From Aminivibrio sp. (GTDB taxonomy: Bacteria; Synergistota; Synergistia; Synergistales; Aminobacteriaceae), in contig NZ_JAESIH010000025.1 in NCBI RefSeq assembly GCF_016756745.1, positions 1-64,000 on the forward strand: a stretch of DNA of 64,000 nucleotides, written 5' to 3'. The position numbers were made by a program, and so were the translations under genes. The notes below the pieces were generated by a model. It did no database searches, had not been told where the DNA came from, and saw nothing but the letters and a program-made list of their open reading frames with translations. Within the stretch, counting starts at the first letter, position 1, and every line of letters begins with the position of its first letter. Shown here one piece after another: positions 45,760 through 62,137 of this stretch.

Positions 45760-47523
45760 ATGATTTCCATAAAAAAATTCCTGAAAATCCAGCTTCTTTT
45801 CATCATTGCTGTGGCTGCAGCTTCTCTTCTCTCTGCAGCCCCCTCTCACGCGGCCATGGGAGAGATTCAGGGTTTTTCCTTTTCCGGTTTCGGCCCCGGG
45901 GAAAGTTCCGCCCCCGACGGCAATCCCGACGCAGTGTTTTCAGTTTCAATTACCGGCTTTGGCGCCCTTGCCGACTTCTCAATCCGTTCCGAAGACGGAA
46001 AATCCGCATGGGACACCACACCAGGAAATAACATACCCGGGATTCACGTTCAGGACGGCGCCGGGAAACTGTTGACGGACAGCAGCAGAAGTCTTCCCAT
46101 TACCCCTTTCCTCCTTGGGGCTTCCTTCGTCCTCACTGTGCATGACGACGGTTCCTTGGCCAGGGGAGGCAAATTCACCCTGACCGCTCTTTTTGTCGAC
46201 GGATCGCAAAGTTCGGCGACGGTGGAAATACCTCCATCCGTGAAGGAGGAACCCGCGCAGTCCGCCCAGGTACGAATCCTTTCCGCCCGGTGGAGCGATG
46301 AGGCAAAACGGGATCTCACGGGAGATTACGAAAAATTGGCGGGGGACGGTGTTCCTGACGAGGCTATACGGGTCGTGATCCAGGGCAGCGGAAAACTGAC
46401 CGGCGTTACCGTGAGAAGCATCAAGGGTGACGCAGCCGAATGGGACACTCTCCCCGGAAACAGCGCCTGGCTCGTGGCTGTCACATCCTCGGAAAAAGTG
46501 CTGAACCGCAAGGACGGAAGCATCGAAGCCGACCTGAAGGGAAGAACCACCCTCGATCTTCGCCTGACCGACAACGGTTCCATCAAAAGGGGAAGATCAA
46601 CCTTCGAAGTGAACCTTGCTTTTTCCGACGGCTCTGTGGTGAAACGCGAAGTGACCGCTGCACAGGCCGGGCATTCCGGAGACGCTTTCGAAGGGAGTGC
46701 GGCGCTCCTCGGCCCCGGCAACCGTGACCTTACGGGAAGAAATGAACAGAGAGCCGGCAACGGCAAGCCCGACCTCGAGGCGGAACTCAGGGTGGAAACA
46801 ACGGGAACCATAGTGGCAGTAAAAATTCATACCATTTCCGGAGCCTCTGGTGAATGGGACACCATACCGGGAAACGGCAAATGGCTTGTAGTACTCACAG
46901 GTGCTGACGGCGCCATTCTCAACCGGGCGGATGGATCCGTGTCCATACCGGTGTCCGGGCCTTCGGTATTTCATCTCTGGTTTGAGGACAACGGAGCCTT
47001 TCCCGAGGCAGAGACAAGGGCCGCGGTGACATTAACATATGATGACGGCCGCGTCCTCTCCCGACAGATTCAGTCCCCTTCATCGGGACGTCCCCAGAGG
47101 GACCCCGTGCAGGATGTTCAAAAGGGACAACGGGAGATACTGCTTTCCTCTCCAAGGCAGGCATCGAGCAGCGACTACGTGGACAAGGGTGAACGCCCCG
47201 GAAGGAGCGGGAAAAAGGACTGGGTTTTCGAACTCCAGATCAAAGGAAAGGGGAGGATTGAGAGCATGTCTCTCCAGGGCACTTCCTCAACCGGCATGGC
47301 AATGTGGGACACCATAACGGGCAACGGATTTTCCCTTCTGGGCGTAAGCGCTCCGGGAAAGGGCCTCCTCAACAGGGCTGACGGAACAGTGTCCTTCGAT
47401 GTGCCCCCGCACAACAACCTGACGCTCTTTGTGGAAGACGACGGATTCCTCCGCAGAAGAGGGCAGAAACAATTCAAAGTCACGGTGACATGGAGCGACG
47501 GAACCGTCACCGAAACAAACTGA
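45760..47523 (+). CDS. Exported protein with four internal repeats
   Basis: A 587-residue protein with a signal peptide (QLLFIIAVAAASLLSAAPSH). Four copies of a domain of ~130 residues are visible, each with a WDT-x-PGN-like turn (AWDTTPGN, EWDTLPGN, EWDTIPGN, MWDTITGN). In most copies an LNR-x-DGS strand, a DNG/DDG loop and a ...SDGS ending follow. This looks like a beta-sandwich tandem exposed outside the cell, perhaps adhesive. I know no name for the domain. The start is odd: AAAGGAG abuts the ATG directly, whereas the in-frame ATA at 45769 would have normal spacing. A 40-bp palindrome follows. Confidence 0.78.
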   Translation: MISIKKFLKIQLLFIIAVAAASLLSAAPSHAAMGEIQGFSFSGFGPGESSAPDGNPDAVFSVSITGFGALADFSIRSEDGKSAWDTTPGNNIPGIHVQDGAGKLLTDSSRSLPITPFLLGASFVLTVHDDGSLARGGKFTLTALFVDGSQSSATVEIPPSVKEEPAQSAQVRILSARWSDEAKRDLTGDYEKLAGDGVPDEAIRVVIQGSGKLTGVTVRSIKGDAAEWDTLPGNSAWLVAVTSSEKVLNRKDGSIEADLKGRTTLDLRLTDNGSIKRGRSTFEVNLAFSDGSVVKREVTAAQAGHSGDAFEGSAALLGPGNRDLTGRNEQRAGNGKPDLEAELRVETTGTIVAVKIHTISGASGEWDTIPGNGKWLVVLTGADGAILNRADGSVSIPVSGPSVFHLWFEDNGAFPEAETRAAVTLTYDDGRVLSRQIQSPSSGRPQRDPVQDVQKGQREILLSSPRQASSSDYVDKGERPGRSGKKDWVFELQIKGKGRIESMSLQGTSSTGMAMWDTITGNGFSLLGVSAPGKGLLNRADGTVSFDVPPHNNLTLFVEDDGFLRRRGQKQFKVTVTWSDGTVTETN

Positions 47524-47532
47524 GAAGCCGAT

Positions 47533-47572
47533 AAGATCAGGGAATGAAGGGGCCCCTTCATTCCCTGATCTT
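47533..47572. repeat. 40-bp perfect palindrome, possible terminator
   Basis: AAGATCAGGGAATGAAGGGG is followed directly by its exact reverse complement, with no spacer. As RNA it would form an ~18-bp hairpin, but the bases after it (CAAAAGG) are not a T-run on either strand. It lies between two exported-protein genes on the same strand and may terminate or attenuate transcription or protect the 3' end. Confidence 0.8.
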
Positions 47573-47590
47573 CAAAAGGGGATGGTACCG

Positions 47591-48184
47591 ATGAAACGCC
47601 TCGCATTCTCGTTGCCTGCCCTAGTCCTCCTCTTTCTTTTTCTTTCCGCCTGTCCGGCATCAGCGTACAGCGGCTACCCCCTGGGGGGAGTATGGGAATA
47701 TTCAGGAACCGTCACAGTTACCATTGATGGAAAACAGGCAGTACTCAGAGATAGCGGCAGAATCACCATCGACTCCGGGTATTCCTATGACTGGTGGAGC
47801 GATGATTTCGACGAGAAAATCAGGACATTTGGAGCGAAAGGGACTTTTTCCCTTTCTCTTTCTCCGGAGATCAGGGAAGACTACAACCATTTCAGGCAGG
47901 TTTACCAGTGGTATAATTTTCGCTCCTTTGAAATCTCTGTTGATGATGCGCTGTATTTTATGGAAGTAACAGGCCGAACCCGGGCAGATCTGAAAATTAC
48001 GAGGACTATCGGCGGACGTCGGGTTTCGGCGGTTTTTTCAGCGGTCCGTATCAGGTGGGACGAGGACTGGGATGACGATTACGGGGATGGATTGTTTTTC
48101 GGCGTCGGCGGTGGATGCAGTACCGGAACCCGACTTTCCGTTTTCTTCCTTCTTCCGCTGCTTTTCCTGAGCCGGAAAAAATGA
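47591..48184 (+). CDS. Exported protein with Synerg-CTERM-like tail
   Basis: A 197-residue protein with an N-terminal signal peptide (LAFSLPALVLLFLFLSACPA; start at 47591, ribosome site AAGGGG). Its C-terminal tail has a Gly-Gly-Gly-Cys-Ser turn, a hydrophobic stretch (LSVFFLLPLLFLS) and a final basic RKK. This three-part tail matches the Synerg-CTERM sorting signal of Synergistota, in which the protein is probably processed at the membrane and released or anchored. The body is beta-rich (WEYSGTVTVTIDGKQAVLRD) with aromatic and acidic stretches and no known catalytic motif. Confidence 0.8.
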   Translation: MKRLAFSLPALVLLFLFLSACPASAYSGYPLGGVWEYSGTVTVTIDGKQAVLRDSGRITIDSGYSYDWWSDDFDEKIRTFGAKGTFSLSLSPEIREDYNHFRQVYQWYNFRSFEISVDDALYFMEVTGRTRADLKITRTIGGRRVSAVFSAVRIRWDEDWDDDYGDGLFFGVGGGCSTGTRLSVFFLLPLLFLSRKK

Positions 48185-48250
48185 CCCTGAGCAGGGCCCT
48201 GTTCTGCGCTGGACATCCACAGGAGAGTATGGTAAAAATTACCAGTGCCG

Positions 48251-48336
48251 GCCGGGGTGGCGGAATGGTAGACGCAGCGGACTCAAAATCCGCCGTGGGC
48301 GACCACGTGGGGGTTCGAGTCCCCCCCCCGGCACCA
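48251..48336 (+). tRNA. tRNA-Leu (anticodon CAA)
   Basis: The 86-nt cloverleaf includes acceptor GCCGGGG pairing with CCCCGGC, an anticodon stem GCGGA/TCCGC around loop CTCAAAA (anticodon CAA, reading UUG), a long class II variable arm CGTGGGCGACCACG, a T-arm with GTTCGAG, and an encoded 3' CCA (48334-48336). The long variable arm is expected for leucine. Confidence 0.96.
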
Positions 48337-48352
48337 GTTCAGTAATACCAAG

Positions 48353-48390
48353 GGTTTCCCGACATCCACAATGTACGGGAAACCTTTTTT
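48353..48390 (+). terminator. Intrinsic terminator after tRNA-Leu
   Basis: GGTTTCCCG (48353-48361) pairs with CGGGAAACC (48376-48384) and is followed by six T. Confidence 0.9.
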
Positions 48391-48434
48391 GTCTTTTTGT
48401 CCATGAAACATCGTTATTTCGTCTTCGAATCCGC

Positions 48435-48690
48435 TGGGGTTGATTTTCCACAGTGAACCGCCGCGGTTATTGAATCAGTCCACCCATTCCAGTGTCGCGA
48501 ATTCCACCTCTCCAAGACCTCGCCAGAGACCGCTTCTTTTGATGACCCCGCATCGCCCAGCCTGCCGCTGTGATGGATCAGGCCTTTTGCGTCTTCCCGG
48601 GCATTGAGGGGCAGATTTGCCTTCTGTAACGTTGGGGGCGCACCCCCCAGTGTCAATGGACACACACTTTCCCGCAGGAGCACACGTCAG
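48435..48690 (-). pseudogene. IS3-family transposase remnant
   Basis: On the minus strand one frame reads KRSGLWRGLGEVEFATLEWV followed by Asp, a stop (TCA at 48475) and then FNNRGG in the same frame. Intact IS3-group OrfB proteins have WRGL...EFATLEWVDWFNNRR there, so a Trp codon has become a stop. In another frame, upstream on the same strand, the catalytic-core piece AKGLIHHSG (from the family's GLIHHSDRG) is still recognisable. Roughly 40 residues between the two pieces are missing. The remnant is therefore deleted, frameshifted and nonsense-mutated. Confidence 0.75.
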
Positions 48691-48709
48691 CTCGTGACCA
48701 TACAGATGC

Positions 48710-48852
48710 AATTCAGGGAACCTCTGAAAAAGCCCCGTGAAATTGCACCTTCCCTCGGTGGAGGCGTTCGCGAGCGTTTTTTCAGCGGCTCATTGATCCT
48801 CATCTCCCTGTAAGGCAATGTTCCGGAAACTTTTTCAGAGGTTCCCTGAATT
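48710..48852. mobile_element. 143-bp element with 23-bp inverted ends (MITE-like)
   Basis: Bases 48710-48732 (AATTCAGGGAACCTCTGAAA and three more) are the exact reverse complement of 48830-48852. The ~97 bp between them hold no gene. Perfect terminal inverted repeats around a short non-coding core define a miniature inverted-repeat element or the joined ends of a deleted insertion sequence. No flanking target duplication of more than two bases is visible. Confidence 0.8.
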
Positions 48853-49266
48853 TACAAGCATTAGCGTTGATGATATCATTTAGAGGGTTCAAAAAAATAA
48901 TGCAAAGTTTTTGCCAGCATATATCATGCAATATCGAGAGGAAACATAATTTCAGCTCATAAAATTTCCAAATCACGGTTGCTGCCCCTTGAACAGACAG
49001 ATTAGCTGATTGTTGCAACGGATTGTATGTTTTTGAAAAAACAAACAGTGCATGAAACATCAGTAGCAGAGAATTCCAGAATATACCCACTTTACCCATG
49101 CAATGCATTCATAAGAATATGTTTTTATGCTCAATTGGCAAATGAGGCAATGATTTTAATAGCATTAGCAGCATTTAATATTAGCAGCTTTAAAAGATTT
49201 TTCCTCTCTTCAGTTGCAGCTCGACTAGAAAATTTTAATAAAGTGGTCAATGGAGGTTTTTATGTC
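48853..49266. other. AT-rich leader, no gene recognised
   Basis: This 414-bp stretch is clearly AT-richer than the flanking chromosome. Frames through it encode nothing recognisable. An in-frame ATG at 49027 could extend the next gene by 80 residues, but that extension is not like any gamma-glutamyltransferase and lacks a ribosome site. It probably carries the promoter of the following operon. Confidence 0.5.
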
Positions 49267-50874
49267 ATGAATTTTGATTTTTATTATTACCCCAATCCCT
49301 CCCAACGGATCGTTACAATTTCGAAAAATGGTATGGTGGCTGCTTCACAGCCTTTGGCGGCACAGGCAGGTCTTGATGCAATGAGAAAGGGCGGCAACGC
49401 GATAGACGCCGCAATTGCTGCTGCGGCCTGTTTAACTGTTGTGGAACCCACTTCGAACGGAATTGGAGGAGACGCTTTCGCCATTGTCTGGACGAAAGGA
49501 AAGCTTTTCGGGCTGAATGCGAGCGGTTATGCCCCAAAAGGTGTTTCCATTGAGGCCATGCTCAAACTAGGGTATAAGGAAATACCCAAACACGGAATTC
49601 TTTCAGTCACAGTACCGGGAATACCATCCGCCTGGGCTGCCCTTACTCAAAGGTTCGGCATTCTGCCTTTGAAAGAGACAATCAAAGATGCTGTGAAATA
49701 TGCTGCTGACGGATATCCTGTATCTCCCTCCGTTGCGTCAAATTGGGCTTCAGCTAAAAAAGAGTACGAAAAATATACCGGTGATTTATCCTTCCAGCCC
49801 TGGTTTGAGACCTTCGCGGAGGGAGGCAAAACACCGAAAGCCGGAGAGATCTGGTCGTCAAAAGCTCACGCTGAAACGCTACAGGCAATCGCTGATACCA
49901 ACGGAGAAATTTTCTATAGGGGAGCATTGGCGGAAGCCATAGCAGATTTCTCAAAAAAACACGGAGGATTCTTGACAGTTGCTGATCTGGCTGAATATCG
50001 ACCGGAATGGGTAGAACCGATAAAAATTCGCTACCGCGGATATGATGTGTGGGAAATACCGCCGAATGGGCAGGGGATAGTCGCGCTTATGGCTCTGAAC
50101 ATTCTCCAGGGATTTGAATTTCAGGCTGACTCTGTTGAAACAGTCCACCGGCAGATAGAAGCAGTCAAAATTGCTTTTGCTGACGGATTTGAGCACATTA
50201 CGGATCCTGCACATATGACCCTTTCGTATTCGGACCTGCTTTCTGCAGCTTACGCTGCCAAGCGCCGTTCACTTATTTCGGAACGGGCAGTTGTGCACGA
50301 AGCAGGTGAACCTTACGGAAGCGGAACAGTTTATCTGGCAACGGCAGATGGCGAAGGAAATATGGTCTCGTACATTCAAAGCAACTACAAAGGTTTCGGT
50401 TCAGGAATTGTAGTGCCCAATACAGGAATAGCGCTCCAGAACAGAGGATGGGAGTTCTCTCTCAACCCTTCAGACCGAAATGCTCTTAAAGGAGGGAAAA
50501 AGCCATACCACACAATTATCCCCGGGTTCATTTCAAGGGATGGAAAACCTGTGGGACCTTTTGGTGTAATGGGAGGTTACATGCAGCCCCAGGGACATTT
50601 GCAGGTTGTCATGAATCTCATAGATTTTTCCATGAACCCCCAGGCTGCGCTCGATGCTCCAAGGTGGCAGTGGATGAAAGGAAAGGAAGTTAAAGTAGAG
50701 CCGAGGTTCCCTAACCATGTTGCTCAGGCCTTGGCCCGAAGAGGACATGAAATTATTTCCTCTCTGGATTCAAATGGGTTTGGAAGAGGGCAGGTTATCA
50801 TACGAGATCCGGAAACAGGAATCCTTGTGGGAGGGACGGATCCAAGAGCTGATTGTCAAATCGCCGCATATTGA
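49267..50874 (+). CDS. Gamma-glutamyltransferase family protein
   Basis: A 535-residue Ntn-hydrolase of the gamma-glutamyltranspeptidase family. The large-subunit signature is GGNAIDAAIAAAACLTVVEP with GIGGDAFAIVW. The probable autoprocessing and catalytic Thr begins the small subunit at GSGTVYLATADGEGNMVSYI, and SNYKGFGSGIVVPNTGIALQ plus GGKKPYHTIIPG follow. There is no signal peptide, so unlike E. coli Ggt it may be cytoplasmic. GGAGG stands ten bases before the ATG. Base composition is lower in GC than the window average. It precedes a tctCBA set, suggesting uptake and cleavage of a gamma-glutamyl or related compound. Confidence 0.9.
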   Translation: MNFDFYYYPNPSQRIVTISKNGMVAASQPLAAQAGLDAMRKGGNAIDAAIAAAACLTVVEPTSNGIGGDAFAIVWTKGKLFGLNASGYAPKGVSIEAMLKLGYKEIPKHGILSVTVPGIPSAWAALTQRFGILPLKETIKDAVKYAADGYPVSPSVASNWASAKKEYEKYTGDLSFQPWFETFAEGGKTPKAGEIWSSKAHAETLQAIADTNGEIFYRGALAEAIADFSKKHGGFLTVADLAEYRPEWVEPIKIRYRGYDVWEIPPNGQGIVALMALNILQGFEFQADSVETVHRQIEAVKIAFADGFEHITDPAHMTLSYSDLLSAAYAAKRRSLISERAVVHEAGEPYGSGTVYLATADGEGNMVSYIQSNYKGFGSGIVVPNTGIALQNRGWEFSLNPSDRNALKGGKKPYHTIIPGFISRDGKPVGPFGVMGGYMQPQGHLQVVMNLIDFSMNPQAALDAPRWQWMKGKEVKVEPRFPNHVAQALARRGHEIISSLDSNGFGRGQVIIRDPETGILVGGTDPRADCQIAAY

Positions 50875-50906
50875 TCAAGAGCAAGCGCTTGCTCTTGATC
50901 AATATG
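50867..50906. repeat. 40-bp perfect palindrome across the GGT stop codon
   Basis: The arm starting CATATTGATCAAGAGCAAGC (50867-50886) is directly followed by its exact reverse complement to 50906, with no spacer. The GGT stop codon (50872-50874) lies inside the left arm. It could form an intercistronic hairpin that limits readthrough into tctC or stabilises mRNA ends. There is no T-run. Confidence 0.85.
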
Positions 50907-50955
50907 GCTTACTTAGGTAGTCAGAAATACAATATAATTCAGAGGAGGTAAAAAA

Positions 50956-51939
50956 ATGATAACTGTGAAAAAAGTTTTTGCAATTTTGTTGCTGTGTGTT
51001 CTGGTGCTTGCAGGAAATGCTCCTGCAGCGCCTGTCGAGGCAGGTCCGGCAGATGATTATCCTAACAAGGCCATAAAGCTTGTGATCCCGTACGCACCCG
51101 GGGGAGCAACTGACATAATCTACCGTATCGTAGCAGAGTATGCACAGCAGGAATTGGGACAGCCCATTGCAGTAATCAATATGGGAGGCGCGTCCGGAAC
51201 CATTGGTTCAAGAAATGTTAAAGATTCCGCACCTGATGGATATACAGTCCTCGGGAGCCACGATGTTATTGCGACAGCTTTTTACTCTCAAGTCGTGGAT
51301 TACGCTTTTGATGCCTTCGAACCGGTTTGTCTGCTTACTTCTACTCCGAACATAGCAACAACACACGCAAAAGAGCCCTGGCACAATATGGCTGAACTTT
51401 TGGAAGACGCTGCCAAAAGACCGGGAGAAATTGTATGGTCGGTAACATTAGGTTCAACTGATCACTTTTTCCTGATGGGACTCCTGAATGCAGCAGGACT
51501 TCCCATAGATGTTCTGCGAATTGCAGGCTATGACGGAACAGGGCCTCAGATCACGGCTCTTCTCGGAAGACATACAAACGGATGCATGACGAATGTTACT
51601 TCGGGTCTTTCATACGTAAAAAGCGGAGACCTGAAATTCCTCGGGGTCGCCCATCCTGTACGTATGCCTCAAATTCCGGACGTCCCCACTTTGAGAGAAC
51701 AGGGGATTCCTTTCGACCACGGAACAAACAGAGGTGTTTTCCTCCCCAAGGGAACACCGAAAGAGATTGTTGACAAACTCGCCGGTGTTTTTGAGAAAGT
51801 GATGCAACATCCCGACGTTGTAAAAAAGATCAGTGATCTTGGTACGATAGTGAACTATAAAAGCCCGCAAGAGTACAAGACTTTTCTTGACGAGACCATG
51901 AAACTTTATGGAGAGCTCAGTAAAATAGCAGACCAATAA
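50956..51939 (+). CDS. TctC-type solute-binding protein
   Basis: A 327-residue periplasmic binding protein of the tripartite tricarboxylate transporter (Bug/TctC) family. It has a signal peptide (FAILLLCVLVLAGNAPAAP), then the family opening YPNKAIKLVIPYAPGGATD and the ligand-region segments GASGTIGSRNVKDSAPDGYT and GTGPQITALLGRHTNG. The substrate is not predictable; the class binds citrate, other carboxylates, acidic amino acids and more. AGAGGAGG precedes the start. A terminator-like hairpin after it would keep its level above that of the membrane subunits. Confidence 0.93.
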   Translation: MITVKKVFAILLLCVLVLAGNAPAAPVEAGPADDYPNKAIKLVIPYAPGGATDIIYRIVAEYAQQELGQPIAVINMGGASGTIGSRNVKDSAPDGYTVLGSHDVIATAFYSQVVDYAFDAFEPVCLLTSTPNIATTHAKEPWHNMAELLEDAAKRPGEIVWSVTLGSTDHFFLMGLLNAAGLPIDVLRIAGYDGTGPQITALLGRHTNGCMTNVTSGLSYVKSGDLKFLGVAHPVRMPQIPDVPTLREQGIPFDHGTNRGVFLPKGTPKEIVDKLAGVFEKVMQHPDVVKKISDLGTIVNYKSPQEYKTFLDETMKLYGELSKIADQ

Positions 51940-51944
51940 ATCCG

Positions 51945-51984
51945 AATGGCACCGGGAGACAGGGCCGGCTCTCCCGGTGCCATT
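51945..51984 (+). terminator. Intercistronic hairpin tctC-tctB (attenuator)
   Basis: A 15-bp perfect stem AATGGCACCGGGAGA/TCTCCCGGTGCCATT with a 10-base loop. The trailing bases are not T-rich, so partial termination or 3'-end protection is more likely than full termination. Confidence 0.7.
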
Positions 51985-52016
51985 AAGCTGAATATAGACG
52001 GGAGGGTGAGTTTGTC

Positions 52017-52460
52017 GTGAAAAAAGATGTCGCTCTCGGCACGGTAATGGTCATTATCTCATCAATCATGATTTGGCAGGCAAACTTGCTGCCGCGGGGG
52101 AACAAATGGGACATGCTCGGCCCTGCGGCCTACCCGAAGTGGATAAGCTGGGCATTGCTGATTCTCTCTGTCATTCTCATTTTATCCTCGCTTCGCAGGA
52201 ACGGAAAAGAATCCTGGAACTGGACAGCATTAATACTTCCCGGATTCACTTTTTTGATCCTTATAGGATATGTTTTTATTATGCCGAGGATGGGATTCAT
52301 CATTTCAACTCTCCTCTTCCTGGTTATCCTTCAGGCGCTTTTATCTCCTTCACAAAAAAAACCATGGCTTTATATAGCCTGTGTATCTCTCTTCTTTACC
52401 TTTGCTCTTTACCTGGTGTCTTCTTATTTGAACATTCAGCTTCCAGTCCTTGCACTGTAG
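52017..52460 (+). CDS. TctB-type small membrane subunit
   Basis: A 147-residue protein with four membrane segments, typical of the small TctB subunit: VALGTVMVIISSIMIWQANL, WALLILSVILILSSL, ALILPGFTFLILIGYVFIM and YIACVSLFFTFALYLVSSYL. The GPAAYPKW motif after the first segment is characteristic. The start is a GTG with GGGAGGGTGAG upstream. It assembles with TctA in the inner membrane. Confidence 0.9.
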   Translation: MKKDVALGTVMVIISSIMIWQANLLPRGNKWDMLGPAAYPKWISWALLILSVILILSSLRRNGKESWNWTALILPGFTFLILIGYVFIMPRMGFIISTLLFLVILQALLSPSQKKPWLYIACVSLFFTFALYLVSSYLNIQLPVLAL

Positions 52461-52479
52461 CCAATGGTAGGTGAAAAAA

Positions 52480-53997
52480 ATGGATGTTTTTGTTGCAGCT
52501 TTAGGCGAGGTTTTTACTTTCAGAATCATGGGATTAATGACGGTCGGGACCCTGGCAGGCATTGTAGCAGCGGCTATTCCCGGTTTTACGATTACCATGG
52601 CAGTGGTGCTCACATTGCCATTCACTTTCGGTATGACTCCGATAGAGGGCTTATCCACGATGATGGCTGTATATGTCGGAGGGTACTCGGGAGGTCTCGT
52701 ATCAGGAATACTGCTTGGAATACCGGGGACACCCTCTTCTGTATGCACCGTTTTCGATGGTTTTCCCATGACGAAAAAAGGACAGCCCGGGAGAGCTCTC
52801 AGCCTCGGTGTATGGGCTTCCTTTTTCGGAGGGCTTATAGGCGCCGTGATTTGTATCCTTTTGGCCGTGCCGATCGCTCGTTTCGGCCTGAGATTCGGGC
52901 CATGGGAAATGGCTTCACTCATTTTCTTCGCCTTGACTCTTATGGCAAGCCTGGGATCCAAATCAATAATCAAAGGGCTTATGGGAGGTCTTCTTGGTCT
53001 TCTCCTGGCTACCGTCGGCATTGATCCCATAGGGGGAAGGCCTCGGTTCACGTTTGGGCAGTATAATCTGACAAGCGGATTTGCTTTTTTGCCTGTTCTT
53101 ATAGGTCTTTTCGCTGTTCCGGCAATGATTCTGGCCGTTCATGAAATACAGGAATCAAAAAGAAAAGGTGAAACCAGGGCTGAATCATATGTGCCAAAGA
53201 ATTTGGCAATTCCCTGGATTCAGTCTTTAAAAGAAATATTGCATCAATGGGTGAATGTGCTGAGATCAGGAATTATCGGTGTGATTGTCGGAGCGCTTCC
53301 CGCTGCAGGCGGCAATACGGCAACGTTTCTTGCATACGACCAGGCGCAAAAGTTTTCCAGGAGATCGGACGAATTTGGAACAGGTATACCTGACGGGATA
53401 ATTGCTTCGGAGGCGGGAAATAACGGCGTTGCTGGAGGGTCATTGATTCCTACGATTGCTCTTGGGGTGCCCGGAAACTCAATTACGGCTGTTATGATCG
53501 GGGTTCTGATTCTTCACGGAATCACTCCGGGTCCTCTGTTGTTCCGTGAACAGCCCACGCTTGTCTACGGTCTCTTTATTGCACTGGTCATTGCTCATTT
53601 TTTCATGTTGGCAATCCATTTTGCGGGTATACGCTGGTTTATCCGGGTTGCCCAGGCACCCAAATATGCACTTGTAGCGGTTGTTCTTGTAATGTGTGTT
53701 GTTGGTTCGTTCGCTTTGAATAACAGGTACTTTGATGTTTGGGTATTTACCTTTTTCGGGTTGATCGGATATATCCTGAACGGGGCTGGCATGCCGCTCG
53801 GGCCGGTAGTTTTAGGCCTGATTCTCGGCCCGCTGGCAGAGTCGAATCTTCGACGGGCACTAATGACAAATCCAGACCCAATGTTGTTCTTCACGCGCCC
53901 CATTTCCATGACCCTTATACTCCTATCTTTGCTGTCCATCGTTTATTCTGGTCTGCAAATCTGGAGAGCCGAAAAACGAAAAAAACCGAAATTCTGA
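52480..53997 (+). CDS. TctA-type large permease subunit
   Basis: A 505-residue permease with about twelve membrane segments. The TctA signature is complete: GIVAAAIPGFTITMAVVLTL, VYVGGYSGGLVSGILLGIPG, TPSSVCTVFDGFPMTKKGQP, and the second-half repeat IGVIVGALPAAGGNTATFLA with GGSLIPTIALGVPGNSITAV. The ATG at 52480 (AGGTG seven bases upstream) is chosen over a GTG nine bases before it. It completes the tctCBA transporter energised by the ion gradient. No terminator follows it that I can see. Confidence 0.93.
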   Translation: MDVFVAALGEVFTFRIMGLMTVGTLAGIVAAAIPGFTITMAVVLTLPFTFGMTPIEGLSTMMAVYVGGYSGGLVSGILLGIPGTPSSVCTVFDGFPMTKKGQPGRALSLGVWASFFGGLIGAVICILLAVPIARFGLRFGPWEMASLIFFALTLMASLGSKSIIKGLMGGLLGLLLATVGIDPIGGRPRFTFGQYNLTSGFAFLPVLIGLFAVPAMILAVHEIQESKRKGETRAESYVPKNLAIPWIQSLKEILHQWVNVLRSGIIGVIVGALPAAGGNTATFLAYDQAQKFSRRSDEFGTGIPDGIIASEAGNNGVAGGSLIPTIALGVPGNSITAVMIGVLILHGITPGPLLFREQPTLVYGLFIALVIAHFFMLAIHFAGIRWFIRVAQAPKYALVAVVLVMCVVGSFALNNRYFDVWVFTFFGLIGYILNGAGMPLGPVVLGLILGPLAESNLRRALMTNPDPMLFFTRPISMTLILLSLLSIVYSGLQIWRAEKRKKPKF

Positions 53998-54149
53998 AAA
54001 GCGGTATAGTGGTCTATAGTGGTCGGAACGATGGAATACCCGTCCGGTGAGGGATCTGTAGGAGGACAGGGTGGTGTGGCTCGATCCTGAGAAGGATGAA
54101 AGAAAGCGGGAAACTTTAACCCCGGAAAAGCGACAAGTCGGTTGACAGA

Positions 54150-54425
54150 CACCGCTGTCCTTGCCACGCTTCTGGACTCGTTTTACATCTCGCTTGAACT
54201 GGCTGGAATGTACCGGGTCAGCATCACACGCCCAGGTCCTCGAACAGAGCATCCGCGCTATCAAAGCGCTTACCCTTGCCAGCCTCCGGCTCTTCCATAG
54301 CTTTGGCCGTGGTGGCATTTGGCACCTGCACAGCAAAGGGCAGGCGTTTTTCATCGGCAATCCGCTCCCCGAGTTCCGCTTCGTTGAGCGCGTGGGTCTC
54401 CAGTACGATCAGGAACTTGTCCTCG
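54150..54425 (-). pseudogene. Decayed RelB/DinJ-YafQ toxin-antitoxin pair
   Basis: Minus-strand frame ending at 54224 encodes the C-terminal half of a RelB/DinJ antitoxin: DEKRLPFAVQVPNATTAKAM, then GKGKRFDSADALFEDLGV and stop. Directly after the stop, MLTRYI in one frame and HSSQFKRDVKRVQKRGKD in the next match the start of a YafQ/RelE-type toxin, broken by a frameshift and truncated after ~20 residues. The antitoxin lacks its DNA-binding N-terminus. Both genes are dead here. A 10-bp tandem duplication (TATAGTGGTC, 54005-54024) lies nearby. The rest of 53998-54727 holds nothing recognisable. Confidence 0.7.
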
Positions 54426-54727
54426 GAACTCCACCGTTCAGGCCGCCCTCCGTTTCCAGGCGCGGCTTCGCCGCTGCGCGCTTCTTCCCGCCATTTCGCC
54501 AGTTTTTTTCAATATTTCCGGACCGGGTGTCTGGGAAAAAAAACCGCCTTCATGCTATCATGCTGACCGTAACCGATCACAAGGAGGGAACCTTCGTTCC
54601 TCGAAGGTCTTCAAGGTATTCCGTCGCAACTGCGGAACCATCCCGTCCTCCAAGATTGTTCAGCTGGATGCGGCCTTGTGAGCTATCGCAAAAATCCTCG
54701 CCATAGACCCGGGAGGTTCAATTGACC

Positions 54728-56800
54728 ATGAAGCCGTTTCTGCCGAAAATCATTCTGCGTTTCATCGTTCTTATCCTCTGTTTTCTCCCCGCCTCCTCTT
54801 ATGCTACTCCTTCTCGAGAAGAAGCTGAAAGGCTGTTTGCCGAAATGCTGCTCGAGATCGAGGTGGCGGCAAAAACAGCCGAGGCAGAAATTGAAAAACT
54901 TCCGAGCATTGTGGACGATGAACGTTCGCGGATCAAAAACGCTCTTGACCAGTGGGCGAATACTCGGCTGACGGAGATTGTCGAGGAAAATTACGCGGAC
55001 GTGGAGAAGGCATTGGCGGAGACAAGGCTTCCCCAGGAAGAGGGGACGTTCAGCGTCTGGTGGAAGCAGACCAAGGCAGGAGCGGGCAGCCATGACGACC
55101 TGAAGAAGCTCGTGGAGCTTTTTTTCGCCAATCTGCAGCCCCGTCTGTCCTCCGTCAGCGAGGAATTCCAGAGGAAAATACTGCAAAGTCTTGAAGAAGA
55201 GACGCAGACTCATCTCAAAGAATCCATGGAAAGAATACGGAAACCCTTTCTCGGTATTCTCAGACAGCGTCTTCCTGTTTACAATACGATTCCCATTCCG
55301 AACACAGACAGGGCAGTCATGTCCTACAGTTCCTCAGGAAAAAAGAACGCCCATTCCGAAGGGACCATCCCTCTGAAAGGCCTGGTGGGCGCGGCCCTTG
55401 TGCTTCTCGGAAGAAGAATTATCACCAGGATTATGAAATTCATTGTCATCAAAATCGCCGGGAAGGTTCTCGCGAAGCTCGTCCCTGTCATCGGATGGGC
55501 CCTTTTGGCCTTTGAAGTCTATGACATGGCCGGAGCCCGTGACCGACTAGAAGAGGAGATGCGAAAATCCTTCCTCGAGGAATACAAGGCGGAAATCAGC
55601 GCGGAGACGCTGTGGTGGAAAAGTGAAAACGGAACCGGCCCTTCCATGCGGGACGAGGTGGACCGGAACATCGGGTCGCTGCTGAAAAACTGGGAACGGA
55701 TCTGCCGGTCCGAAGCGGACTCCATGATCCAGAGCGCCCACATCCTTTCCTTCTCCGATGAGGTCAGAGAGTACGTTTCGCGTCAGATCAGCGAAGGTGC
55801 TGAATTTGGGACGGTGCTCCAGAAAATGAGCATCCTCTGGGACGTATTCGGCCAGCTGCTGGCCCAAGGTCAGGTCCAGGTTTTCGAATCCATGCTCGTT
55901 TCAGCCCCTGACAGGAGCGAACTGCGGCTTCTCGCAAAAAGTCTCGGCCCGAAACTTCCGGAGCTGTACGAAAAGTACGGGAGGGACTTCTTGCAGGCGG
56001 TCGGCAAGATCGGAGTGCAGAATTATCTCTCTTCCGAGGAATGGAACAGGAGAGAGATCGACTGGCACCTCCTCAACGAAAATCTAATTTCTCTTCCCGA
56101 CATCGGAGACAACAGGGAGGCGGCAGCCGGTCTGCTGACCCTCCTACTGGAAGGAGCACCTCTTCAGGGGATGTCACCCGATACTCTGGCAACCATAGCG
56201 GGACAGAAGGGCCTCTTCGGGAAAATGTGGCAGATCCTCAAGCCCGACATAAACAGGACAATTCTCCTGCTGGGGAACAGAAGAGCAGCGGCCCACATCG
56301 CTGAAAGCCTGGAGCTCTATCCTGCGGCTGCATCCGTTTTCCTGAAGAGTTACGGCCCGGAGTTCTGGAGCGCATGGTCCCGGGAGGAAATCATCGACCT
56401 GCTGCAGATCACCGATTTTCGGTCGGTCAATTCCGGAAAGACCCACGAGACGGTCCTTGTTCAGCCGGAGGACCGTGCGGAACTCGTCAACATTTTCCGC
56501 ACGGCGGGGAAACCGGGGATCGCCCTCTGGGACATCTATGCCGCGGAAGGCACCGGGGCGGTGGGGAAGAACCTCGCAAGGCAGAGCATAGAATGCCTTG
56601 CCGACGGATATCCTTTCGAAGACCTGAAAGAAAAAGACAGGCTCGAGTTTGCCGTTTTGTGCAGGAAAATTCCCCTGTTGGGTAAATTTTTCTACGACAC
56701 CTTCAAGAATCTGGGATTCCTTCCCCGTTTCCTCGTCATTCTTGCTGGAATCCTCGCAGTGTTTTCCATGTTCTTCTTTTTCTTCAGAAGGAGAAAATGA
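54728..56800 (+). CDS. Exported, membrane-attached helical protein (system gene 1)
   Basis: A 690-residue protein I cannot assign. It has a signal peptide (IILRFIVLILCFLPASSYA), a coiled-coil-rich region at ~28-185 and a hydrophobic, glycine-spaced segment at ~218-266 (GLVGAALVLLGRRIITRIMK, continuing through VIGWALLAFEVYDM) that could insert into or lie in a membrane. A long helical middle follows, and a C-terminal membrane segment with a basic tail (FLVILAGILAVFSMFFFFF, RRRK). GGGAGG lies 11 bases before the ATG; a TTG six bases earlier is possible. It is the first of three plus-strand genes leading to a membrane GTPase. Confidence 0.75.
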   Translation: MKPFLPKIILRFIVLILCFLPASSYATPSREEAERLFAEMLLEIEVAAKTAEAEIEKLPSIVDDERSRIKNALDQWANTRLTEIVEENYADVEKALAETRLPQEEGTFSVWWKQTKAGAGSHDDLKKLVELFFANLQPRLSSVSEEFQRKILQSLEEETQTHLKESMERIRKPFLGILRQRLPVYNTIPIPNTDRAVMSYSSSGKKNAHSEGTIPLKGLVGAALVLLGRRIITRIMKFIVIKIAGKVLAKLVPVIGWALLAFEVYDMAGARDRLEEEMRKSFLEEYKAEISAETLWWKSENGTGPSMRDEVDRNIGSLLKNWERICRSEADSMIQSAHILSFSDEVREYVSRQISEGAEFGTVLQKMSILWDVFGQLLAQGQVQVFESMLVSAPDRSELRLLAKSLGPKLPELYEKYGRDFLQAVGKIGVQNYLSSEEWNRREIDWHLLNENLISLPDIGDNREAAAGLLTLLLEGAPLQGMSPDTLATIAGQKGLFGKMWQILKPDINRTILLLGNRRAAAHIAESLELYPAAASVFLKSYGPEFWSAWSREEIIDLLQITDFRSVNSGKTHETVLVQPEDRAELVNIFRTAGKPGIALWDIYAAEGTGAVGKNLARQSIECLADGYPFEDLKEKDRLEFAVLCRKIPLLGKFFYDTFKNLGFLPRFLVILAGILAVFSMFFFFFRRRK

Positions 56801-56828
56801 CCATGAACCGAAGACAGGAGACAGAAAA

Positions 56829-57179
56829 ATGCAGAAAACCAGTGTTCCCGTTCTCACCGTGGACAGCCTTCCCGGAAGAAACTTCCAATACCTTGGCTGC
56901 GTAACCGCTTCAAGCTGCCTCTCGAAATCCTTTGTCCAGGACCTCTCTTCCAACCTGAAAAACTGGACTATCGGAGGGGAACTGAACCAATACCGGGCCA
57001 TGATTGACCAATCGGTGGCCCTGGTGATGGAACGAATTGCCGAAGAGGCAGGAAAAATCGGAGCGGATATGGTGCTTGGCTTCAAGTTGTCTACGACCAG
57101 CGTTTCTTCCGGAGCCGCAGAAGTTATCGGGTACGGGACGGCCGTAAAGCTGGAGAAACAAAAAAGTGCTGCAGATTGA
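56829..57179 (+). CDS. YbjQ-family protein (system gene 2)
   Basis: A 116-residue protein of the YbjQ (DUF74) family, small proteins that form pentamers and have been annotated as possible heavy-metal binders. Family features are the start PVLTVDSLPGRNFQYLGCVT, the central GGELNQYRAMIDQSV (where many members read GGRS), IAEEAGKIGADMVLGF and the closing GYGTAVKLE. It carries two cysteines (residues ~24 and 30) not usual for the family. AGGAGA precedes the start, 28 bases after gene 1, so they are co-transcribed. Confidence 0.85.
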   Translation: MQKTSVPVLTVDSLPGRNFQYLGCVTASSCLSKSFVQDLSSNLKNWTIGGELNQYRAMIDQSVALVMERIAEEAGKIGADMVLGFKLSTTSVSSGAAEVIGYGTAVKLEKQKSAAD

Positions 57180-57482
57180 TTCTCCAGAAAGTCCCTCCGG
57201 AGGTAGGGTGGGTCATAATGAATTCTGAATATTTGGTAGAAAGCCGAAATCGAATTTTCCTGCCGAATCTGTCTCAAGCAGCTCCGCAAAGTCCTTCAAA
57301 TTCAGGGGGCTATTTCAGTTTTTGATTTATTTTGTGCAACTACTGATACTCCCGAATCTATGGTATTCTTTTTGGGGTGAGAAGAGGAAATCCCCCGGCT
57401 CTTTCCCCGTTGTTCCCTGTATCATGGCGGCTGATGTCAATATCGGACTTTGCATAGACAACCGTATGGAGGGGGAATAGGT
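57180..57482. other. Intergenic region, no gene recognised
   Basis: This 303-bp gap before the GTPase gene contains no credible frame, terminator or repeat shared with the rest of the window. Composition is more AT-rich than the flanking genes. It may hold a separate promoter for the GTPase gene; only the ribosome site GGAGGGGG just before 57483 is evident. Confidence 0.5.
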
Positions 57483-60179
57483 ATGGCCAAAAAAAAGTAC
57501 AGAATAGCGATCATGGGCGCATCCGGCGCCGGGAAAACCGTCTTTCTGGGTTCCTATTTCAATTTGGTCACCAATCTCGGCCATGGTAAGCCCGTATCCC
57601 TGAATACTCCGGAAGCGGACGGTGAGGTCGGCCGGATCATCCGTACACTCTTCAAGCAGCAGGTTCCGGTGAAGGAAAAGGCAAAAAAAGACCTTATCTC
57701 TTATTCTGTGGTTCCTCTTGATATGGATGCCAGTTTTATCGAAGTACCGGAGGGCGGTTCCCCAAAACAGCGGAACTGGCAGGATCACAAATTTCTTCCC
57801 GAATTGAAATCCGCTGACGGTGTGCTTTTTTTTCTTCCTGCAGACGACCTGATGAAAAACCCTGAAAGAATTGCGCGAGAAAACGGAACCTTTCAGGAAG
57901 CTCTTTCCTTCCTTCTTGAAAACAATTCTTCACGATGGGGCAGCGGGGAAAAGGTCCCGGTAGTCTTTCTCTTTACAAAGGGAGACACCGTTCCTGATGT
58001 TTCCGTCGAACAGCTTACAGAAAGAATGATAGAGGTCCTGGGCAAAGACCGGCAGAAATCCTCCGCCCTGTCAATCTTTCTTTCCGCCGGCAGCGGAAAC
58101 ATCAAGGCTTTCAGGGTTGTTGCCATCGGCAAATGGCCGGACCAGAAAACCCTTCCGAGAGAATACGAACCTCAGAATGTCATAAAACCAATGGAGGAAC
58201 TCTACAAAATGATGAGCAGCCAGGAGAACGAACGCAGAAAGATCAAGTCCGCCGTCCTTGCCGTGGTCGCCCTTCTCGTCGTATCGACGGCCGTTACCTG
58301 GGGCATGGACCACTACCGGTGGAGGAGCACCAAAAACGAGGCCCGGAAGCTCGCGGCGAACTCGAAATATGAGGATGCCCTGAAGATCGTGGATTCTTTC
58401 GGGAAAAGCTATATCTTTCCCGACCCCATCCCCCTCATTCCCTCGGCCCTGCGGGGAGGAGCGGACAAGGACGCTTTTCGGAGCAGAATTCTCAGATCCT
58501 ACGAACAGGCTCTGTTTGACCGGCTTCTGCCGCTTATCCGGGACCTTGACACCGTAAAAATGCCTGACGTGACGTCGGGGAAGTACCTGGACGCATCCGG
58601 TAAAGTTGAAGAGTACCTTGCAAATTCCGCCTTCCGGACAGTAAACCAGGCCAACTATGACAGGGTCCAGTCCATTCGGTGGTACTTCGAAGCCGGGCAG
58701 GCGCTTCTGGGGAAAACCGCCGATGAAACGGAAAATGCGCGCGAAGCCTACAGCCTCATTGAAAGCTGGCTTGATTTTCTGCCGAAGCTTCCCGAACAGT
58801 GGAAGACCGAAGGGGCACAAAAGGCGGCTGACCTCTTCTCCTTCTGGGCAGATATGGTTTCCCCTGATGCGGAAATCGAAGAAGTGGAGGCTTTCGCTGC
58901 CTCAGCCGCACGGCTTTCCGACAATCCCAACGCGTCGGAAGAGCTGAAAAAACTCATAGCCGACCGGTGTGCGGCATGGAAGGACATGATTTCCGCCAAG
59001 TGGACAGAGCGGGGAGCCGCATGGGTTCAGGAGGCTTCCGCCCTTGTACCGGAAGAAGGGATCGAAAAAATCAAAGCTCTCATGGAGAGAGAAGGCCTTC
59101 CCGAAGACATCGGCAAAACCCTTTCAGACGCCCTGGAAGGCCAGTATATCCGCCTTGCCGAAACTCTTGCCGGGGACGAAGGCGCGGACAGCGAGAAAAT
59201 CAAGGGAATTCTTTCCCGTTATCCGGAAATGCCCGGGCAAGCCAGGCAGATCCTCTCTGACCGCATTCTCACCATTGCAAAGAATGAAGTCTCCGTCGTC
59301 TCCGCAGGGATAGAGGCTTCCGAGTCCCTGGAAGCTCTTGGAGCCAGGCTCTCCGACCTGGAGCGTTCCTGGACGGACTACCCGGCCGGAAAGGAAGAAG
59401 TGGCGCAGAGTTTCGAAAAGACCTTCTCCAGGCTCGTGACTTCCGAATGGGAGAAAATTGCCGAAGAAGGGGCCGCCCTTGCGGACAAGAAAGACTTCGC
59501 CGGCGCAAGGGATTTGTATATATCTTCCGTCGAAACCCTCACCGCCAAGCTTGAAAAGGCAGGGCTCGGAGCATTCGGAGACGGCGCCGTGGCCGAAGCG
59601 GCTGAAGTCCAGGGCAAAAAGCTCGGGGAACTTCGCCAGGCCCACCTCTCTGCCTGCAAATCAGCTTTCGAAAGGCTCAAATCCTCCAAAAACAAAGAAG
59701 ACATAGCAGCTGCATCAGAAACACTAAAGGATTTCGCCTCCCTCTGGCCGGATACGGAAGAAGGGGCGGAAGCCGGAAAGACCGCCCTCTTCCTTGACGC
59801 GGCCAGCAACGGGGCCAAAGCCGTCCTGACCATAGTCGGCGGCGACTTTACTTCTGCCGATTCGCTTCTTGACACCCCCGACATGAAGATTCTCCTGAAA
59901 AGGGACGGCACAACGCTGCTAGAGACCAAAACGGCGGACAACGAGGTCCGGCCGGTTTTCGGCGAAAAGCACGAATTTACCTGGGACGTGGACTCCCGCT
60001 TCACATTCATCGGAATTGAAACAGGGGGCATTCTCGGCTCTGACAAGGAAGTCTTCAACGTAACGGTTGATGCCGGGGGAATCTTCGGTTACGAAAAGCT
60101 CGGCGGAACCCTCAAAAACGGCGGTAATTCCATCACCATAAAACTGGACATCGACCTTCCGGAATCTCCCTGGAAATAG
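57483..60179 (+). CDS. Membrane-anchored GTPase with large helical domain (system gene 3)
   Basis: An 898-residue protein. Residues 1-245 form a P-loop GTPase: G1 GASGAGKT (12-19), a G4-like TKGD at 165-168 after VPVVFLF, and SAG at 201-203 in the G5 position. The G3 motif is not clear. A membrane segment follows at ~256-274 (SAVLAVVALLVVSTAVTWGM). The remaining ~620 residues are helical and TPR-like (for example NSKYEDALKIVDSFGKSYIF), then end in a beta-rich domain (~780-898, with ILGSDKEVFNVTVDAGGIFG). So a cytoplasmic GTPase is tied to a large domain on the other side of the membrane. I know no named family with this layout. Confidence 0.82.
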   Translation: MAKKKYRIAIMGASGAGKTVFLGSYFNLVTNLGHGKPVSLNTPEADGEVGRIIRTLFKQQVPVKEKAKKDLISYSVVPLDMDASFIEVPEGGSPKQRNWQDHKFLPELKSADGVLFFLPADDLMKNPERIARENGTFQEALSFLLENNSSRWGSGEKVPVVFLFTKGDTVPDVSVEQLTERMIEVLGKDRQKSSALSIFLSAGSGNIKAFRVVAIGKWPDQKTLPREYEPQNVIKPMEELYKMMSSQENERRKIKSAVLAVVALLVVSTAVTWGMDHYRWRSTKNEARKLAANSKYEDALKIVDSFGKSYIFPDPIPLIPSALRGGADKDAFRSRILRSYEQALFDRLLPLIRDLDTVKMPDVTSGKYLDASGKVEEYLANSAFRTVNQANYDRVQSIRWYFEAGQALLGKTADETENAREAYSLIESWLDFLPKLPEQWKTEGAQKAADLFSFWADMVSPDAEIEEVEAFAASAARLSDNPNASEELKKLIADRCAAWKDMISAKWTERGAAWVQEASALVPEEGIEKIKALMEREGLPEDIGKTLSDALEGQYIRLAETLAGDEGADSEKIKGILSRYPEMPGQARQILSDRILTIAKNEVSVVSAGIEASESLEALGARLSDLERSWTDYPAGKEEVAQSFEKTFSRLVTSEWEKIAEEGAALADKKDFAGARDLYISSVETLTAKLEKAGLGAFGDGAVAEAAEVQGKKLGELRQAHLSACKSAFERLKSSKNKEDIAAASETLKDFASLWPDTEEGAEAGKTALFLDAASNGAKAVLTIVGGDFTSADSLLDTPDMKILLKRDGTTLLETKTADNEVRPVFGEKHEFTWDVDSRFTFIGIETGGILGSDKEVFNVTVDAGGIFGYEKLGGTLKNGGNSITIKLDIDLPESPWK

Positions 60180-60202
60180 TCCCCTAGAAATATTGGAAGC
60201 GG

Positions 60203-60240
60203 AAAAAAGGCGGCACCCTGCAACGGGGGCCGCCTTTTTT
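60203..60240 (+). terminator. Intrinsic terminator after the GTPase gene
   Basis: AAAAAAGGCGGC (60203-60214) pairs with GCCGCCTTTTTT (60229-60240), giving a T-run on both strands. It can also serve the convergent gene at 60373. Confidence 0.93.
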
Positions 60241-60372
60241 CCGTCTTTTCATGGAGCGGGTGTCACTTCTCGGCGTATTCTCTTATAAATTCCCCAATAA
60301 GCTCTGCCGCATCTTGGAATTCAACAACTATTGACTTTTTATAGCTAGCTTTTTTGACATTAATTTTGTTGA

Positions 60373-60876
60373 TCAGTTGACCCTCTCCCAGGCATCCTGC
60401 GTCAGCATGTATACCACGGTTTGTCCGAGCTCTTTGTTGTCCTGTACCGCAACTCGGATGGATTTTCCCGTTCGTGTGTGCTGTATCCGGAATATCTTCC
60501 CAAGCCCTGTCGTGCCGACAGGAAAACCTCCCTGGGATTCAAGCTCGTCACAGACCTCATATCCTGACATGTATCCCTTCTTGTAAATTTGCCCTAAAAC
60601 ATTGATTGTACCGTCAAGGCCATACGACACAAAGTACCAGTCGAAATACGATGAACCGGAAATCCTGTACATTTCAAGTTCTGCCTTGAAGGTAGTATTC
60701 CAGTCAATGGTATCCGGCTCGCCCACGTTGTTGTACACCCAGCTTCGTTCCAGAAAAAAGTCGAGCCGCTCGGCAAGATCCTGGGAAATGGAAGCCAATG
60801 CGGTGGAAGCCGAAAGACAGAGAAGAAAAACCGTAACGAAAACAATTGTGCGATTTGCGGCGTTCTTTTTTGGCAT
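60373..60876 (-). CDS. Exported protein of unknown function, possibly frameshifted
   Basis: A 167-residue protein with a signal peptide (TIVFVTVFLLCLSASTALA; start at 60876, GGGAGG upstream). The body is a mixed alpha/beta sequence (RSWVYNNVGEPDTIDWNTTF, SYFDWYFVSYGLDGTINVLG, TGKSIRVAVQDNKELGQTVV) with no family I recognise. It ends DAWERVN at 60373. In another frame immediately beyond, a protein-like stretch NKINVKKASYKKSIVVEF and DAAELIGEFIREYAEK runs to a stop at 60263 without a start codon of its own. A frameshift near 60375 may therefore have shortened the gene by about 36 residues. Confidence 0.7.
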   Translation of the reverse strand: MPKKNAANRTIVFVTVFLLCLSASTALASISQDLAERLDFFLERSWVYNNVGEPDTIDWNTTFKAELEMYRISGSSYFDWYFVSYGLDGTINVLGQIYKKGYMSGYEVCDELESQGGFPVGTTGLGKIFRIQHTRTGKSIRVAVQDNKELGQTVVYMLTQDAWERVN

Positions 60877-61004
60877 GAGAGCAACCTCCCTGAAAATTAT
60901 TTCAGATATACCAAATATAGTATATCGAAAAGCATGGAAAGAAACAACCAAAAAAGACCGCGTTGCCTTTTCCGCAACTCTTTTCCCAGGGCACATCACT
61001 CAAA

Positions 61005-61050: not shown

Positions 61051-61491
61051 CCAGTATAAAGGCAAAAAAATGGCGGAGAAGGAGGGATTCATTACCATTT
61101 TCCTCTCTTTTTATGAATTGTTGCAAACACTGCATTCTTCAAAAGCCCGTTGTGCAGTTTTGTAACACCACTTTGTAACACCATATCAGACCCCGCAACG
61201 GTTTTATTCTACATTACGGAACACCAAGGTTCAAGAAGCAAGACCGATTTTTCGTATGGTAATCAGAAAGTTCAATATGACTCTGAGCTGTTCTTTGACA
61301 AGATTTTCCAACTGAATTTGGAACTTTTGAAGCTGAGTGTTTCGATGAAAGAAATGATTTTTTATTAGCCGTTAAATTTGGGCATGAAATTGTGTTTTTT
61401 TTCCTTCATCCCTCTTTCACTTCACTTTTTTTCAACTCGAAGAGATACTTCTAAAAATTGGGCTTTAGCAACCTATATTATGTTGTAGGGG

Positions 61492-61588: not shown

Positions 61589-62137
61589 ATGTTTGATCGT
61601 CAGGAAATCCCGTCCTTTCTGAAGCAGCAGCTCAAGCAGCCTAGGTTCAGGAGGAGATTCAAAATGGCAGAACCTCTCGCCGATATCGTAATTCACAAAA
61701 TGGAGCAGGCGGCAGAGTTGTATCACCGCCTGGTCATTCTTGTGGCTTCTGCTGGTTCGGGTAAGACCGCTGTTCTTCTGGACGTCCATAAACGCACTGC
61801 AGCTCCCTATATTAATGTAAATCTGGAACTCTCCAGGCGCATGCTCGATCTCACCGAGCGGCAGAGAGCATTGCAGATACCCCGTCTTCTCTTGGATATT
61901 GTGGGAGAAGACCCTGTCGTCTTGTTGGACAATATCGAAATTCTCTTCGACGTCTCGCTCAAGCTGGACCCGCTGCGGCTTTTACAGGGACTCTCCCGGA
62001 ACAGGACGGTGGTTGCCGCGTGGAGCGGATCCATTATCGGCGAAAATTTAGTCTACGCAGCGCCGGATCATCCTGAATACAAACGGTATCCTGTGCAGGC
62101 CCTTCTCGTAGTCAGCCCCGAGGCGATTGCATGGTGA
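61589..62137 (+). CDS. brxF: BREX-3 P-loop protein BrxF
   Basis: A 182-residue P-loop ATPase. The Walker A motif is [14 protein letters not shown] at ~50-63, Walker [13 protein letters not shown] at ~110-121, and [12 protein letters not shown] follows. Size, sequence style and position directly before brxC match BrxF, the first gene of BREX type 3 phage-defence systems. It probably works with BrxC and the methyltransferase in distinguishing self from phage DNA. The ribosome site is weak, which is odd for a first gene. The next gene starts 31 bases downstream. Confidence 0.85.

Follow-up and report, generated by a model that had tools for sequence, protein, structure and literature searches.

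Three co-directional genes in Aminivibrio sp. (Synergistota)—encoding an exported helical protein (gene 1), a YbjQ-family protein and a membrane GTPase—lie next to a BREX-3 operon, and the locus raises the question of whether they constitute one membrane system, possibly devoted to defence, or separate units that happen to be neighbors. The window is the stretch of DNA that was analysed, 64,000 nucleotides of contig NZ_JAESIH010000025.1. The three genes were compared with those of 188 Synergistota genomes, Synergistota being the phylum to which the window belongs.

The locus and its chromosomal setting

The genes, their parts and the adjoining features are listed in Table 1. As described in an earlier note on this DNA, the three reading frames are intact, run in one direction with a 303-bp gap between ybjQ and the GTPase gene (57180–57482), and finish at a strong terminator. 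Relative to the congeneric genomes G025 and G026, dN/dS is 0.075–0.081 for gene 1, 0.10 for ybjQ and 0.16–0.17 for the GTPase gene, and homologues of all three are also present in other genera; these are intact, real genes under purifying selection. Folding reveals no terminator within the 303-bp gap (z=+0.95), matches from a terminator scan are at chance level, and no ncRNA was found there.

Table 1. Coordinates of features at the gene 1, ybjQ and GTPase locus, as positions in the window
Feature	Coordinates	Strand	Description and basis
Gene 1	54728..56800	+	690 aa, ATG 54728; exported all-helical membrane protein; ORF, AF2 pLDDT 80, superfamily across phylum
Gene 1 membrane hairpin (residues 216-267)	55373..55528	+	Alignment; hhalign 97%
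ybjQ, partner of gene 1	56829..57179	+	116 aa, ATG 56829; PF01906, paired-YbjQ clade 95/88
Stretch non-syntenic with G025/G026	57162..57342		blastn breakpoints
GTPase upstream region, conserved in G025/G026	57343..57482	+	blastn
Membrane GTPase	57483..60179	+	898 aa, ATG 57483; ORF, AF2 pLDDT 81
GTPase domain (residues 1-230)	57483..58172	+	DO-GTPase2/SR-beta-like; PF19993, Foldseek 1nrj_B, alignment
GTPase single TM (about residues 253-276)	58239..58310	+	Hydropathy, alignment
GTPase long helical stalk	58311..59810	+	Predicted periplasmic; AF2 secondary structure
GTPase C-terminal C2 domain (residues 778-890)	59814..60152	+	Predicted periplasmic; Foldseek, hmmsearch, Pfam in relative
Intrinsic terminator 3' of GTPase	60196..60249	+	-38.2 kcal/mol, z=-7.8 (folding)
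Small exported protein adjoining GTPase	60373-60999	-	Syntenic in G025/G026; synteny

The surroundings of the locus were compared with G025 and G026 using blastn. Positions 47504–48340 of the window, including a tRNA-Leu gene (48251–48336), run straight into the gene 1 region in both genomes, so that 48340–54506 is an insertion of 6.2 kb directly on the 3' side of the tRNA. An exact direct repeat of the tRNA end was not found at its far side. The insert carries a gamma-glutamyltransferase-like gene and a TctC/TctB/TctA transporter. Between ybjQ and the GTPase gene, a short non-syntenic stretch replaces a beta-lactamase-family gene of G025 and G026; synteny resumes after the GTPase gene and ends at 61267, just before the BREX-3 operon, which has BrxF at 61589 (PADLOC E=8.5e-70), 1.4 kb downstream of the trio, and extends as far as about contig position 79376. 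By synteny with G025 and G026 the locus is chromosomal backbone and both islands are later arrivals, and because the insert and BREX-3 arrived separately on either side, the adjacency to BREX is incidental. An association of the trio with BREX is rejected on these grounds.

The gene 1–ybjQ pair

The gene 1 product, whose gene has the ribosome binding site GGGAGG, is composed of a Sec signal peptide (about residues 1–26), a helical domain (30–190), the hairpin (about 216–267), a second helical domain (267–650), a transmembrane segment (about 664–685) and an RRRK tail. The hairpin comprises two hydrophobic segments flanking a K/R-rich stretch and is the best-conserved core of the superfamily in the alignment. 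An AF2 model built on 17 sequences is all helix (pLDDT 80, pTM 0.54) and has no fold match in PDB or BFVD. Searches of Pfam, NCBIfam, PADLOC and PHROGs gave no match to gene 1 that passed the threshold, and the view that the trio corresponds to no named system stands in that none of these four collections names the gene 1–YbjQ pair. Narrow gene 1 patterns scanned against public contigs matched Synergistales only (entries named as Synergistaceae, Synergistales or Synergistetes MAGs), and tblastn of gene 1 and the GTPase against plasmids gave no matches.

Divergent forms of gene 1, of about 650 aa, occur elsewhere, two of them in tandem in several genomes and some with a cytosolic WCX tail. They are joined to the window form by hhalign over the hairpin (97% probability), and judged by sequence all gene 1 forms are one superfamily. 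The WCX domain is an accessory domain of WYL regulators. As a predicted cytosolic tail of gene 1 relatives WCX (PF25583) is found in two genera (E=7e-12 and 1.3e-12), and it is absent from the gene 1 of the window. The likeness to WYL-WCX transcription regulators is confined to this domain, which in the gene 1 relatives sits on a membrane protein without a WYL domain; two examples of WCX fused as the tail of an exported membrane protein are at L072:8015-10036 and L094:926-3019.

The YbjQ protein of the window matches PF01906 over its full length (E=1.4e-20; 74.3 bits against a cut-off of 23) and is a member of that family (UPF0145). It is without a signal peptide, and the PDB entries related to it in structure, 1y2i, 2gtc and 1vr4, list five chains each. 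Where it departs from the family at large, which has matches in 10 of 14 control genomes, is in its dedication to an exported membrane protein and in its placement in a clade apart from standalone YbjQs.

This dedication is evident across the phylum. Gene 1 homologues of substantial length are present in 38 of the 188 genomes as 39 long copies, and ybjQ lies directly downstream on the same strand of 34 of these copies, in 33 of the 38 genomes, the two ends often overlapping by a few bases. Five copies are exceptions: that of G048 is at a contig end, G036 has no YbjQ, and in the remaining three (G070, G111 and G113) a YbjQ belonging to the paired clade is encoded on the strand of gene 1 at a distance of 1.4–9 kb. 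In a tree the paired YbjQs form a single clade (95/88), distinct from the YbjQs that stand alone in this phylum; 29 of its 31 rows adjoin gene 1 directly and the other two are within the same neighborhood. Given the 34/39 downstream pairing, the single YbjQ clade and the one gene 1 superfamily, the conserved system is gene 1 plus ybjQ, a previously undescribed two-gene module across Synergistota. The earlier supposition that these two genes belong together is thereby borne out. No description of a membrane-protein partner for YbjQ was found in the literature searched. At one locus (L101:4885-5748) a SHOCT-DUF1232 protein is encoded directly 3' of ybjQ, which hints at membrane-associated oligomer partners.

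The membrane GTPase and its relatives

Homologues of substance to the GTPase were found in 13 of the 188 genomes. The GTPase has G1 (GASGAGKT) and G4 (TKGD) motifs, and its G3 is degenerate, reading EVPEG in the alignment where relatives have DxPGG. In the AF2 model (pLDDT 81, pTM 0.37, built on 13 sequences) an SR-beta-like GTPase domain (1nrj_B) is followed by the TM region, a helical stalk of about 500 residues and a C-terminal beta-sandwich. The match of the window copy to PF19993 is local to the P-loop and at 19.6 bits is below the 27-bit cut-off, so that it is not itself a DO-GTPase2 member by that measure; the GTPase domains of relatives pass the DO-GTPase1/DO-GTPase2 cut-offs, reaching 28–37 bits against PF19993, and a GTPase paralogue in G026 scores 36.7 bits for DO-GTPase2 and 30.0 for DO-GTPase1.

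The tail of this protein had been described as helical and beta. The helical part holds, and the beta part can now be refined to a C2 domain: the modelled beta-sandwich matches the C2 domains of cPLA2, Munc13, PKC and others (Foldseek probability 1.00, TMt 0.64–0.70), a profile of the 13 homologues matches a synaptotagmin C2 by hmmsearch (E=0.0017), and Pfam C2 is matched in the relative at L082 (E=0.00098), the window copy scoring below the Pfam cut-off. An acidic pattern in loop 3 of the relatives' C2 is partly lost in the window copy. The window GTPase is a switch of DO-GTPase2-like type, though a divergent one, and has one predicted membrane span, a helical stalk and, unexpectedly, a C2 end. 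Since positive residues precede the TM segment, the GTPase domain is predicted to be cytosolic, with the stalk and C2 domain in the periplasm. A nucleotide-driven switch might then extend across the membrane, its helical stalk ending in a C2 tip that binds membranes or partners; we put this mechanism forward as plausible, although somewhat short of probable.

The relatives of the GTPase have a companion of their own. A gene designated C3, encoding a protein of about 470–600 aa with one TM segment near residue 200 and no Pfam match, is directly 3' of the GTPase gene in all eight cases (8/8), and no full-length C3 was found without the GTPase; one further match, in G075, is short and marginal (E=4e-4). 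C3 is absent from the window genome, where the GTPase has no such dedicated downstream partner. The relatives may thus work with C3 as a dedicated downstream TM protein that the window copy would have lost. Some GTPase–C3 loci add further exported or TM proteins. An exported helical protein beside GTPase relatives (C14) was considered as a gene 1 homologue, a kinship that would have saved the three-gene reading, and rejected (hhalign 0.1–0.6%). In the G081 relative two GTPase matches are within a single reading frame, and at L087:6445-9909 DO-GTPase2 is matched twice in one frame, apparently a fusion of two GTPases, with C3 following it. A scan of public contigs with the GTPase domain confirmed nothing, and it also missed relatives known to exist.

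The arrangement of a GTPase, a TM segment, a periplasmic helical part and a beta C-terminus resembles that of TssM/IcmF of type VI secretion, and C3, with one TM segment near residue 200, would be placed like the TssL partner; GTPase relatives also give a weak IcmF-related_N match (E 0.017–0.09). That GTPase and C3 are a minimal TssM/IcmF-like and TssL-like pair, remnants of a type VI-like membrane complex, is nevertheless highly improbable: VipB/TssC and IcmF_C are found in none of 11 GTPase-bearing genomes with a positive E. coli control, the GTPase ends in a C2 domain, its best family match is DO-GTPase2, and C3 has no Pfam match to TssL/DotU. With neither IcmF_C nor sheath genes, TssM/TssL membership is effectively refuted, and an analogy of architecture may still hold.

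The closer comparison is with DO-GTPases (PF19993/PF19975). Kaur et al. 2020 (PMC7159879) describe these as the switches in conflict systems situated near the membrane, which include GAP1 partners and, in certain cases, Hsp70 proteins, and a part in membrane stress has been predicted for them (PMC11237479). Relatives of the window GTPase resemble these in passing the family cut-offs, in having a direct downstream partner and, in G094, in adjoining two Hsp70-like proteins. They differ in having a helical stalk and C2 at the C-terminus in place of the described zinc ribbons, the window copy falls below the cut-off, and the copy of the window's genus has no partner gene. GAP1-N2 (PF20013), the one GAP1 family searched, was found in none of the 188 genomes with a positive control and is rejected as the GTPase partner. 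At L082:5627-13188 two genes for Hsp70-like proteins flank the GTPase–C3 pair, and one of their products has Sel1/TPR repeats; the setting recalls the Hsp70 theme known from DO-GTPase conflict systems.

The statement that GTPases recur in conflict systems is borne out in part, for the window GTPase's own relatives (PMC7159879), and does not extend to the trio. That the trio is a phage-defence module of the BREX-3 island could be argued from the start of BrxF 1.4 kb downstream, from the proposed conflict role of DO-GTPase systems (PMC7159879), and from the two Hsp70-like neighbors of GTPase–C3 in G094, and the earlier note had raised a defence module as one possibility. However, BREX-3 and the 6.2-kb island were inserted separately, and gene 1, ybjQ, the GTPase gene and the small gene that follows it keep their synteny in G025 and G026, the aligned backbone ending ahead of BREX. 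No PADLOC family matches any of the three products, which are thus not assigned to a known anti-phage system. Among the 115 neighbors of 20 gene 1 loci, each defence family has at most 2 matches (PADLOC, no random control), and around GTPase relatives there are only single scattered matches (again with no random control); at its other loci the pair has no recurrent defence family near it. A defence role for the trio is unsupported, and membership of the BREX-3 island is very unlikely.

Relationship of the GTPase to the pair, and proposed roles

Outside the window's genus the GTPase is present in eight genomes and gene 1 in 33, with one genome in common where about 1.4 are expected by chance; in that genome, G049, the two genes are on different contigs. 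Conserved synteny of GTPase and gene 1 in distant genomes, which the earlier note had looked to for support, is thus absent. Of the two findings it had named as counting against a system, rare co-occurrence is seen for the GTPase and gene 1, and a terminator in the gap was not found. Within the genus the arrangement varies: an opposite-strand beta-lactamase-family gene (PF00144) separates ybjQ and the GTPase gene in two of five genomes (G025 and G026), gene 1–ybjQ and the GTPase gene are on different contigs in G028, where the GTPase gene again adjoins a beta-lactamase-family gene, and in G027 all three genes adjoin, with a gap of 63 bp. The 140 bp upstream of the GTPase gene are conserved together with the gene start (87% in G025, 81% in G026), and are probably the GTPase gene's own promoter. 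A three-gene operon across genomes is rejected, with co-occurrence at chance and C3 as the GTPase partner.

A link confined to the genus may exist, since the trio is contiguous in G027, and read-through could occur because in both the window and G027 the genes follow one another in the same direction and no terminator intervenes. On this basis one may imagine a three-gene transmembrane relay in this genus, as the earlier note had in outline, in which the GTPase senses or drives on the cytoplasmic side, its periplasmic C2 and stalk contact the exported helical domains of gene 1, and YbjQ serves as a cytosolic adaptor. Besides the contiguity and the lack of a terminator in the window gap, the common neighborhood of the three genes in G025 and G026 and the large periplasmic helical parts predicted for both GTPase and gene 1 are compatible with such a relay. 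We consider it unlikely, however, as the genes are unlinked in G028 and interrupted by an opposite-strand gene in G025 and G026, co-occurrence outside the genus is not above chance, GTPase relatives have another partner in C3, and about 30 genomes have gene 1–YbjQ without any GTPase relative. The locus is in all probability two separate units side by side, the gene 1–ybjQ pair and an independently associating membrane GTPase; inclusion of the latter in a three-gene system is not supported, given C3 and the intervening gene.

As predicted from sequence, gene 1 would be exported and would span the inner membrane by its hairpin and C-terminal anchor, with the long helical domains outside. A cytosolic YbjQ ring could dock on the K/R-rich loop of the hairpin, on the cytosolic tail of gene 1, or on both, and to judge from the WCX tail in relatives, the cytoplasmic side may be where a ligand or signal is read. 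The gene 1 complex would thus monitor the envelope, its state being read by YbjQ in the cytoplasm. Because the relatives' tail carries WCX, an envelope-monitoring scaffold or sensor would be the likeliest role of the gene 1 complex; that the pair forms a scaffold or sensor in the inner membrane, served by a YbjQ ring of its own in the cytosol, is a tentative proposal. The account as a whole—two independent units, the pair as scaffold or sensor and the GTPase as a C2-tipped switch—we hold to be right by a narrow margin. A broader picture is offered with as much reserve as the scaffold or sensor role: a phylum-wide, undescribed complex with gene 1 capped by a ring of five YbjQ subunits, in some lineages via the WCX tail, and with the C2-tipped transmembrane GTPases a new DO-GTPase branch whose C2 domain would be used on the inner membrane's outer face.

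The locus illustrates that adjacency to BREX can mislead, the defence operon being the newcomer by synteny. With a C2 domain at its end, this bacterial transmembrane GTPase would link DO-GTPase switches to membrane or envelope contact. YbjQ proteins are widespread and are assigned no clear role in the literature searched; their strict lineage-wide pairing with gene 1 makes a role directly testable, and the complex proposed here, if true, would provide the first physical partner and a membrane role for the YbjQ family.
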